Of a stretch of DNA of 64,000 nt, positions 20,668-34,165 are shown piece by piece (within the stretch, counting starts at the first letter, position 1; the number at the start of each line of letters is the position of its first letter). The notes beneath the pieces were generated by a model, which ran no database searches, had not been told where the DNA came from, and saw only the letters and a program-made list of their open reading frames with translations. Source of the stretch: Pseudomonas putida (GTDB lineage Bacteria > Pseudomonadota > Gammaproteobacteria > Pseudomonadales > Pseudomonadaceae); assembly GCF_005080685.1 (NCBI RefSeq), contig NZ_CP039371.1, positions 806,001-870,000 of the forward strand, written 5' to 3'. A program made the position numbers and the translations under genes.

Positions 20668-20687
20668 GCAGACGCCTGAGCAACAGG

Positions 20688-20713
20688 GCCCCGGGAGACC
20701 GGGGCTTTTTTTT
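20688..20713 (+). terminator. Rho-independent terminator after the second MFS gene
   Basis: A 7-bp stem GCCCCGG/CCGGGGC with GAGA loop is followed by eight T. The T-run directly abuts the left end of the inverted-repeat element at 20714. Confidence 0.9.
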
Positions 20714-20775
20714 GGTTCTTCACGGATTGTCGGGGAGCTTGGCTTGGCATTTATATCGTGAGCTGATCCATTGTG

Positions 20776-21024
20776 TGTAGCGGCGCTACCGGCCCCTTCC
20801 GCCTTTACGGCGGGCTCCTTTGTTCTTGGACAAAGGAGCGCAAAACCGCTTGCTCCCCCATACGGCCCCTACGCTGCGCTTCGGGGTTCCCTCGCTTCGG
20901 CGCCTTCCGGGCCCGCGCGGCCTACGACTTGCTCCGCAAGTCTACATCTCGCGCCTCCGGCTACGCCGGAGGGTGCTTCGCACCTGGCCCTCCAGCCACC
21001 TACGCTCGGCCTCCTGAGGTCGCG
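20776..21024 (+). repeat. Left arm of the inverted-repeat element
   Basis: Hairpins visible in the arm: GCTCCTTTGT/ACAAAGGAGC around the loop TCTTGG (20814-20839), CTCCGGCTACGCCGGAG (about 20955-20971), GACTTGCTCCGCAAGTC (about 20926-20942) and GGTGCTTCGCACC (about 20972-20984). Confidence 0.8.
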
Positions 21025-21173
21025 GGTAGATCAAGATCAAAAGCCAGATCAAAAGCCAGAGCAACGGCAGGCGAATCGCTGCGCTCTCGCGGTTTACCTA
21101 TCGCTTTGTGTTGTAGCAGATAGCGCGGTGTCTCTTTCGAAGATAACGCCAGTGCAGGCGCCGCCCCTAACTT

Positions 21174-21420
21174 CGCGACGTCAGGAGGCCGAGCGTAGGC
21201 GCCTGTAGGGCCAGGTGCGCAGCACCCTTCGGCGTAGCCGAAGGCGCGAGATGTAGACTTGCGGAGCAAGTCGTAGGCCGCGCGGGCCCGGAAGGCGCCG
21301 TAGCGAGGGGACCCGTAGCGCAGCGGAGGGCCGGATGCAGGAGCGAGCGGTTTTGCGTCCCTTTTTCCAAGAAAAAAGGGACCCGCCGTAAAGGCGGAAG
21401 GGGCCAGTAGCGCCGCTACA
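21174..21420 (-). repeat. Right arm of the inverted-repeat element
   Basis: This is the reverse-complement copy of the left arm. Read on the minus strand, its first hairpin is GTCCCTTTTT/AAAAAGGGAC with the same TCTTGG loop. Its later hairpin is CTTCGGCTACGCCGAAG. Stem changes relative to the left arm come in pairs that keep base pairing. Confidence 0.8.
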
Positions 21421-21502
21421 CAAAATGGACCGTTCCCAATCTCAATGCCAACAAGCCAAGCCAAGCCAAGCCAAGCCCAATCCCGACAATCCGTGAAGAA
21501 CC

Positions 21503-32231: not shown

Positions 32232-32623
32232 TGGTGGAGCCGGGGGGATTTGAACCCCCGTCCGCCAGTACTCCGCTGTCGGTACTACATGCTTAGCCGT
32301 GTCTACTGAGTTAATCCGCAGCCGCCCGACGGGCAGGGTGCTTTGGACGAGTTGGGTAAGTTTTAGTCGCTTTGCCCCCAACGTGCTACACGACGATCCT
32401 GTTCTGTATGACAATCACTTCGGGTTTACAGGCATCCCCTGGTGATTGCTGGAGCCGAAGCTACCAGGAGAGCGGGCTCAGCTGCTTACGCAGCGAGAGC
32501 GTAACCCTCGTAGTTTTCGTCATTGGCAACTATAGAAAGTTGCAACAGTGGATTTACGAGTTCTGTTACCAACTCGGCATGCACCTAGAGTTTCGCAACC
32601 GGCGTCGAATCCTAATCGGCCCC
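32232..32623 (-). ncRNA. ssrA: Transfer-messenger RNA (tmRNA, 10Sa RNA)
   Basis: The 3' end on the minus strand reads GGGGGTTCAAATCCCCCCGG then CTCCACCA, a tRNA-like T-arm and acceptor with encoded CCA. The 5' end is GGGGCCGATTAGGATTCGAC. The tag reading frame runs from 32527 down to 32486: resume codon GCC, then the peptide ANDENYEGYALAA and stop TAA. The RNA, with SmpB (gene at 41082-41564), rescues stalled ribosomes and adds the degradation tag. A candidate -10 (TATACT) lies at 32666-32671 on the minus strand, implying a longer precursor that is trimmed. No integrase or island lies at its 3' end here. Confidence 0.97.
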
Positions 32624-33839: not shown

Positions 33840-34165
33840 GCAGTCTCCTGAATGCTGAAGGACTGCCGCTTCCGTTCCACAGGAAGGGTGGCAGCTGTAC
33901 ACGGGGTGGAACCCGAGTGCATTCAGGAGTACTCGGTAGGCACGAGGCCTCCCGCGTACAGCCGCCATTAACGACACGCTCCAGAATGCTAGGCCGGGGT
34001 TCCACGCCCGGTCGCTGAACACCAGCGACTCGAACAGCCTAGGGAGCCAGGATTTTCGGGACAATCAGACGCGTGTCGACGCGACTCGTAGGATATTTCC
34101 AAAGGCTGCAAATCCCTACCACTTGTGCGTAGGAGGGATCTGAACCTTCTGTAGGATCCGTATCG
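33840..34165. other. Structured intergenic stretch, no gene seen
   Basis: A stretch of 326 bases without credible coding, but with several inverted repeats. 'ctcctgaatgc' (about 33843) pairs with 'gcattcaggag' (about 33919). Ctgccgcttcc pairs imperfectly with ggaagggtggcag (about 33864-33894). Ggggtggaaccc pairs with ggggttccacgccc (about 33904 and 33992). Gtcgctg pairs with cagcgac (about 34011-34029). The first repeat includes the Shine-Dalgarno of the 93-residue gene. It may hold a leader or small RNA; promoter and terminator are not evident. Confidence 0.5.

Follow-up and report, generated by a model that had tools for sequence, protein, structure and literature searches.

A non-coding, probably mobile repeat of Pseudomonas putida with inverted arms that appear to be selected as a folded single strand

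The 789-bp element that begins at position 20714 of the window (the whole 64,000-nucleotide stretch of Pseudomonas putida DNA that was analysed) probably belongs to a non-coding repeat family that is mobile but non-autonomous, with selection acting on the arms in their folded, single-stranded form. Each of the two inverted arms would carry the same structured module, with a hairpin (A) outermost and then an H-type pseudoknot, and a pyrimidine-rich third strand would lie in the major groove of that pseudoknot's long stem (hairpin B). Relatives in several bacterial phyla point to this combination of pseudoknot and triple helix, which is more familiar from telomerase RNA and from certain riboswitches.

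Results and discussion

The window element and its ends

The element spans positions 20714 to 21502, is non-coding, and has an MFS transporter gene and an amino-acid permease gene as its neighbours, one on each side. The original prediction described it as free of any transposase and bounded by perfect 21-bp terminal inverted repeats, and both statements agree with our analysis: no evident gene was found inside, and the repeats are present at 20714-20734 and 21482-21502. Such ends are not expected by chance, since we estimate the expectation of a perfect 21-bp inverted match within 0.8 kb at about 800 squared divided by 4 to the 21st; a genome search with the end pattern (up to two mismatches) returned 27 matches, against 0 for the reversed pattern. 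The two arms are inverted relative to each other, as had been proposed, while the proposed length of about 248 bp did not stand: they measure about 310 and 330 bp, with an overall identity of 84% and a centre of 149 bp between them. A 141-nt block is 94% complementary between the arms and a 102-nt block 88% complementary. Immediately before the left end of the element comes the T-tract of a terminator-like hairpin, which is situated behind the transporter gene. The features are listed here with their coordinates, strand and basis.

20685-20713, plus strand: terminator-like hairpin with T-tract, host flank and not part of the element (also in relative G024 without the element)
20714-20734, plus strand: left 21-bp terminal inverted repeat, GGTTCTTCACGGATTGTCGGG (inverted-repeat match; genome pattern search)
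20776-20789, no strand: palindrome TGTAGCGGCGCTAC, left copy (sequence)
20799-20813, minus strand: left-arm hairpin A, CCGCC-TTTAC-GGCGG (covariation; structured strand taken as minus from G.U wobbles)
20814-20839, minus strand: left-arm hairpin B, GCTCCTTTGT-TCTTGG-ACAAAGGAGC (sequence and covariation)
20840-20849, minus strand: left-arm candidate third strand AAAA at 20842-20845 (position relative to relatives; window copy itself uninformative)
20840-20849, minus strand: left-arm CC 20846-20847 and GG 20828-20829, two pairs that may be what is left of the pseudoknot stem (position relative to relatives)
20850-21024, minus strand: remaining left arm, GC-rich, with hairpins (sequence)
21025-21173, no strand: central stretch separating the arms; contains two tandem copies of AGATCAAAAGCC at 21034-21057 (sequence)
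21174-21348, plus strand: remaining right arm, GC-rich, with hairpins (sequence)
21349-21356, plus strand: right-arm candidate third strand TTTT at 21351-21354, together with a GG that may belong to the pseudoknot stem (position relative to relatives)
21357-21382, plus strand: right-arm hairpin B, GTCCCTTTTT-CCAAGA-AAAAAGGGAC (sequence and covariation)
21383-21397, plus strand: right-arm hairpin A, CCGCC-GTAAA-GGCGG (sequence and covariation)
21407-21420, no strand: palindrome GTAGCGCCGCTACA, right copy (sequence)
21482-21502, minus strand: right 21-bp terminal inverted repeat (inverted-repeat match)

The pairing-preserving differences that had been read between the arms are visible in the sequences. 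The first hairpin (hairpin B) is GCTCCTTTGT/ACAAAGGAGC in the left arm (20814-20823/20830-20839) and GTCCCTTTTT/AAAAAGGGAC in the right arm (21357-21366/21373-21382), with pairing kept and the loop TCTTGG on the arm strand. A later hairpin reads CTCCGGCTACGCCGGAG in one arm and CTTCGGCTACGCCGAAG in the other, and one pair of the CCCC...GGGG hairpin is missing from both sides. Protein-coding sequence, which the original prediction had named as the reading to be checked against, was rejected: the arms differ by single-base insertions and deletions, their loops vary in length, and the open reading frames that cross the element are mechanical only. The left arm, folded by itself as DNA, gave a z of -1.84 relative to shuffled sequence, with 4 of 100 shuffles equally good, a mild excess that does not count in favour of structure. 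No Rfam family matched the window element at gathering score, all matches there being weak (E 0.11 to 4.1). The window arms carry a short version of the motif, with a third strand of four bases and a pseudoknot stem of two GC pairs, and because these are all that the window copy offers, a triple helix in its arms is predicted from the relatives described below.

Variable runs of GCTTG, GGGTTT or GGGCT units, some of them telomere-like and G-rich, lie between the outer end and the palindrome (window 20737-20748 and 21452-21476; also L011, L012, L053 and L057). Elsewhere in the window, a C4 antisense RNA match (33884-33972) and a tmRNA match (32232-32623) lie 1.3 kb apart and may mark a prophage beside the tmRNA gene.

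Dispersal in the genome and an empty locus

Sequence comparison demonstrates that the element is dispersed in many copies. In its own 6.6-Mb genome, 28 separate places (L001-L028) match it over 371-804 bp, and the 27 copies besides the window copy are 88-97% identical to it. Copies in which both arms aligned consist, by eye, of one arm of each of two types, apart from a few mosaics; these arm comparisons bear out the proposal of two diverged, inverted copies of one structured repeat unit. The comparison also reveals presence and absence at the locus. In relative G024 the same terminator-like hairpin continues into other sequence, with REP-like repeats by eye, and the element is for this reason regarded as absent there. 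The empty locus, the 28 genome places and the lack of a gene inside together support the proposed spread without a transposase of its own.

The gene context of the copies is relevant to a different reading, in which the motif would serve the cell as an RNA in 3' regions, for instance by forming a transcript end that stops exonucleases or by ending transcription from both directions between neighbouring genes, and its spread would be a side effect. By a crude open-reading-frame rule, 19 of the 28 copies could be classified (11 tandem, 7 convergent and 1 divergent), and 18 of these 19 lie downstream of at least one open reading frame; the window copy itself sits directly behind a terminator-like hairpin, and triple helices protect the 3' ends of eukaryotic RNAs, including that of a plant retrotransposon (PMC12501189, in excerpt). 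We nevertheless consider a primary cellular role doubtful, as 9 of the 28 copies fall outside the classification, the same locus in G024 lacks the element, the number of sites per genome ranges from 3 to 151, and the inverted pairing makes one arm antisense in any read-through transcript.

Several copies (L001, L002, L004, L009, L010 and L018) abut, by eye, T-tracts behind GC-rich stretches. An exact 7-bp AT-rich repeat was seen by eye in 3 of the 12 copies with both ends found, and no consistent target duplication emerges. Two small elements (L046, 134 bp, 163-296; L047, near 308) comprise, by eye, the outer parts alone, joined at one palindrome TGTAGCGRCGCTACA, and may have arisen by deletion or may be the ancestral element into which the core was inserted; L273, also in the own genome, is an isolated fragment of an end. 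An insertion sequence with an rve-type, IS481-like transposase (392 aa in five of seven) occupies the same arm position, in or by TGCTCC, in 7 of the 28 copies (L032, L033, L034, L036-L039). A second one, with a DDE_Tnp_1, IS4-like transposase (450 aa in two of three), lies inside hairpin A in 3 of the 28 (L034, L035 and L040), with GCCGTAAAGGC repeated on both of its sides.

Terminal inverted repeats, no evident gene and tens of copies are also what an ordinary MITE with fold-back arms would display, the hairpins then being incidental, and the element does combine such repeats with the lack of a transposase gene. The search for an autonomous parent of the 21-bp ends covered the ISL3 family and did not support one there: the genome contains one weak match to such a transposase (L295, 3294 bp), and GG[TC]TCTTCAC with up to one error is absent from that locus. 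This sole match without matching ends nearby, the three-way covariation presented below, and the fact that other genera have the module but not the 21-bp outer ends make the ordinary MITE a rather improbable description.

Covariation of the two hairpins

The original prediction suggested that other genomic copies be examined for covariation, and they do display it. A total of 97 arms were extracted and 57 were kept after a length limit, the removal of three arms interrupted by insertion sequences and a 97% identity filter; two long arms (from L086 and L082) were left out, giving alignment A1 of 55 arms. Because these arms were collected by sequence similarity and not by hairpin, they provide a fair test of the hairpins. 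Across hairpins A and B, 93.9% of cells are paired, and the covariation score of 0.322 compares with 0.106 (sd 0.009) in 500 shuffles, none of which reached it, and with at most 0.118 when the pairing was slid. Two stricter measures were weaker: 9 pairs changed on both sides against 7.2 (4 of 500 shuffles reach this), and 15 further pair types against 13.2 (reached by 32 of 500). Additional fully paired stem versions, for example GCAAC/GTTGC, CCTAC/GTAGG and GCTAC/GTAGC, occur in other copies.

A second stem and a mirrored tract

After hairpin B, read in the orientation of the arm, comes a short purine tract, a mirror image of the hairpin's purine strand, and next to it a stretch complementary to the hairpin loop. 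Hairpin, mirrored tract and loop-complementary stretch together constitute a predicted H-type pseudoknot with a third strand. Of 279 hairpin instances, the mirror test used the 135 with GCG[AG] or GCA[AG] upstream; many of the dropped ones are readings of the same sites on the opposite strand, and 11 loci were left with no instance. Since the search pattern for named records fixed the first three bases of the third strand, the tests use its later positions. Among 89 distinct combinations, positions 4-8 of the third strand gave 277 matches of 380, against 153 in permuted data (sd 8.8, maximum 184; 0 of 5000). The third strand as a direct repeat was rejected (343 of 647 matches, against 537 of 647 for the mirror repeat). 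For the pseudoknot stem, the mean longest Watson-Crick run in 129 instances was 3.86 against 2.92 when permuted (sd 0.07), and runs of 4 or more numbered 72 against 27.9 expected.

These results persist when related sequences are reduced to one representative. With one instance per group (99 instances in 42 hand-labelled groups, L229-L267 being dropped as they carry no label), the third strand matched at 80.1% against 47.2% (mean z 9.8) and the pseudoknot-stem run was 4.00 against 2.94 (mean z 8.7). In a set found without a third-strand condition, 24 of 26 third strands start with AAA; of the 111 positions further on, 87 match, compared with 50.9 (sd 5.1). The lengths of the A-runs in stem and third strand are correlated, with an r of 0.88 over 103 instances.

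All 51 sequences of one fixed geometry were aligned gap-free as alignment A2. Hairpin and pseudoknot stem together scored 0.414 for covariation against 0.136 (sd 0.012), with 0 of 500 shuffles reaching this, a value to which the long stem contributes partly by construction because the search pattern required its pairing. All four pseudoknot pairs show changes on both sides, with 77% of their cells paired and 23% unpaired. Two stricter measures were weak: 11 pairs changed on both sides against 8.9 (29 of 500 shuffles reach this), and 27 further pair types against 25.0 (110 of 500). Third-strand identity was 218 of 255, against 147 in column shuffles (sd 5.7, maximum 163), 62-138 when slid and 133 in the antiparallel direction; the column shuffles and the sliding rule out a composition artefact. 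The selection on folded RNA or single-stranded DNA that had been proposed from the window is thus supported by hairpin, pseudoknot-stem and third-strand covariation alike.

Exceptions exist: L122 is a perfect palindrome without a third strand, L134 has a broken third strand and L139 a broken pseudoknot stem, and among the sites listed the third strand is absent from three in G688, two in G690 and two of four in G687. In 20 relatives, Rfam at gathering score gave one match, TwoAYGGAY in L105 (1178-1285), outside the motif (1501-1606).

Covariation can also arise by mutation, through template switching in quasi-palindromes combined with gene conversion between copies, with no selection at work. 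The stem versions of hairpin B do look, by eye, as if they had been swapped like cassettes between copies of the own genome. Correction of this kind produces nested inverted repeats; it yields neither a third strand with mirror polarity nor a second stem that is not nested, and here third strand and second stem covary across 42 groups in several phyla. We therefore regard a mutational origin as very improbable, and of all the rival explanations it is the only one that is clearly disfavoured.

Base triples and the folded strand

On the outward strand, from the centre of the element to its ends, T·A-T and C·G-C account for most of the triples in the 51 sequences; some T-A inversions have G·T-A (e.g. 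in L161, from Rhizobacter, and L129), and the rest are other base combinations. The parallel pyrimidine-motif triple helix is built from triples of these kinds, recognition of a TA pair by G included. As far as sequence can tell, the covariation fits a Hoogsteen third strand parallel to the purine strand, and we infer that these combinations form a real triple helix.

Comparison of the arms further reveals a strand bias in the wobble pairs. In the 55 arms, wobbles in hairpin B fall 25 to 0 in favour of one strand; the count for hairpin A (8 against 4) is hardly informative. The middle pair of GTNAC, in the orientation of the arm, is C.A or A.C in 72 of 135 instances and G.T or T.G in 0. Since the G.U wobbles fall on the outward strand, the fold is placed there, and the wobble bias and the pyrimidine-motif triples are therefore two signs that name the same strand. 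In each arm the structured strand would have its 5' side towards the centre and its 3' side towards the end of the element.

RNA is favoured over single-stranded DNA as the more likely material of this fold, because about half of the counted instances have G.U at one stem position, where U.G is the commonest state. A single-stranded DNA module would act as a structured end for an HUH-type or similar transposase, in the way of IS200/IS605 hairpins and REP sequences. Inverted paired units, dispersal and insertion beside T-tracts resemble REPINs, and the wobble pairs are compatible with DNA, G.T being tolerated in DNA hairpins too. Against this stand the commonest U.G state, which fits RNA better, and the GTAG or CGTC tags of REP sequences, which are not enriched by hairpin A: these tags or their complements were found around or outside it in 31 of 135 instances against 47 expected in shuffled flanks. 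We rate the DNA reading as possible though unlikely.

Distribution and arrangement in other genomes

Matches to the element (E up to 0.001) were found in 195 of 249 sampled genomes of the genus, its own included, and matches to part of the right arm in 23 of 59 sampled genomes of the family, in 10 of 19 genera. A model built on the 55 arms matched 12 of 274 genomes of the class, again with its own included, and at least two of these matches (L098 and L102) look like chance by eye; a hairpin-core pattern with no condition downstream matched 16 of 369 class genomes, against 1 for the reversed pattern. Named genome records contain at least 119 motif stretches. Among the matches listed are Pseudomonas, Cupriavidus, Xanthomonas, Aeromonas, Methylophilus, Thiobacillus and Lysobacter, as well as Cystobacterineae MAGs (Myxococcota), Pseudoflavonifractor (Bacillota) and Flavisolibacter (Bacteroidota). 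As a multi-copy repeat, the core motif occurs in Pseudomonadota, Myxococcota, Bacillota and Bacteroidota, in genomes as well as in MAGs, some of these phylum assignments resting on binning because the Myxococcota and several other records are MAGs. Pattern sites in 11 genomes numbered 151, 114, 69, 50, 45, 26, 18, 17, 6, 4 and 3, and the reversed pattern gave 0 in all 11. In other genera the module occurs without the outer 21-bp ends.

Mobile replicons gave little. The window element had 0 matches in 72,556 plasmid records and 0 in 50,697 phage records; in the plasmid records, a second Pseudomonas arm pair had one weak match and a Cupriavidus element none. The motif pattern was found in 5 stretches among 2.9 million viral contigs.

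The paired arrangement of the window copy recurs elsewhere. In named records, 10 of 14 pairs of neighbouring units within 1.2 kb are convergent like those of the window, 376-969 bp apart, so the inverted two-unit design is recurrent and not an accident of the window copy; the remaining pairs are two with both units on the minus strand, one with both on the plus strand and one back to back. Pseudomonas G672 has four pairs, each made of one constant unit and a different one, and G217 has the opposite, back-to-back arrangement of arms three times. One locus (G300:C1:5319096-5319567) carries one unit in three tandem copies at 216-bp spacing, followed by an inverted unit. Beside the motif in L094 there is a GTCATTCCGGG...CCCGGAATCC repeat, which may be of the MRSC-65-2 type of PMC11109978 (in excerpt).

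Proposed mechanism and significance

On the reading that we prefer, the module would be selected as a folded single strand that is recognised by, or protected from, a trans-acting factor, and the folded end would let a foreign enzyme spread the element. A further-reaching version is offered more tentatively, and we hold it at low confidence: the motif may represent a class of structured RNA in bacteria that has so far gone undescribed, a triple-helix pseudoknot like that of telomerase, present as two divergent copies per mobile element and spread through at least four phyla, in which the RNA would serve as the handle by which a trans-acting enzyme mobilises the element. The element would then be an RNA-dependent non-autonomous one outside the known IS200/IS605, IS110, REPIN and retroelement systems.

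Sequence alone rarely reveals covariation of base triples, which here runs from T·A-T to C·G-C, and to G·T-A at inverted pairs. With as many as 151 sites in one genome, the motif would permit a strong comparative test of triple-helix rules, and it offers a cheap in-vitro test case for a triple-helix pseudoknot. It also raises the question of how a structured repeat crosses phyla if not by plasmids or phages.

Comparison with known systems

No description of the motif was found in open-licence PubMed Central text, mostly titles and abstract openings, with searches that included motif strings. Among the closest repeats described there are the PIT or TM_ECO repeats of enterobacteria (PMC4666352, in excerpt), which are intrastrand-triplex repeats of 34-37 nt with a G/C-rich consensus of CCCTCNCCC...GGGNGAGGG, the latter twice. 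They resemble the motif in being dispersed intergenic repeats with pyrimidine, purine and mirrored purine tracts, some of them in inverted pairs of two types; the excerpt of PMC4666352 describes no second stem or compensatory three-way changes. Three tracts with a mirror-symmetric third strand are found in the motif family, the window copy being uninformative on this point, but the CCCTCNCCC/GGGNGAGGG/GGGNGAGGG consensus is not. Instead, the tracts of the motif are A/T-rich (ACTTT.../AAAGT), its predicted third strand is anchored by a pseudoknot stem, and the strand that the covariation points to is the opposite, pyrimidine-motif one.

Among the 250 mobile or repeat candidates counted in a 2024 survey (PMC11109978, in excerpt), MRSC-65-2 is likewise very abundant, multi-phylum and covarying. 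It differs in having a single long stem and a UYCCGG repeat, a distinction drawn from its described consensus for this one candidate of the 250. Identity with either the TM_ECO repeat or MRSC-65-2 was rejected, as their consensus differs from the motif. The R200 and R26 repeats of P. fluorescens (PMC2718517, in excerpt) are similar by description in arm size (320 and 352 bp), in a G+C content of about 60% and in occurring in tens of copies; the excerpted description mentions no pseudoknot or triplex.

REPINs and RAYT-linked REP sequences also consist of inverted structured units in many dispersed copies in Pseudomonas, the REP units being 20-40 nt palindromes with a GTAG or CGTC tag (PMC3116915 and PMC3733652, in excerpt). 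The unit studied here, unlike these, is about 250-300 bp long with a predicted pseudoknot and no enrichment of the tag by hairpin A; the window does have a palindrome, GTAGCGGCGCTAC, 9 bp outside hairpin A. In a plant retrotransposon, the ENE triple helix in the element RNA aids mobilisation, which provides a parallel for the proposed role; according to the same excerpt (PMC12501189) the ENE forms with the poly(A) tail of the RNA, whereas the bacterial motif has an internal third strand in a pseudoknot predicted from sequence.

The organisation of the motif resembles that of REPINs and of the enterobacterial triplex repeats, and its mode of action would be that of the triple-helix pseudoknots in telomerase RNA and certain riboswitches. 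By the features tested, the motif appears as neither a REP sequence nor a TM_ECO repeat. Two interleaved stems with covariation, a feature of the H-type pseudoknot, are evident from the score and the paired cells, the counts of pairs and pair types being weak. Telomerase RNA and the riboswitches are functional RNAs with partners or ligands, whereas the motif is a multi-copy repeat known from sequence alone. Telomerase RNA contains a triple-helix H-type pseudoknot with major-groove U·A-U and C·G-C polarity, and the triples predicted for the motif share that polarity. A comparable H-type pseudoknot with a triple helix is described for SAM-V (PMC6061858, in excerpt) and for the guanidine-III riboswitch (PMC5696562, in excerpt).
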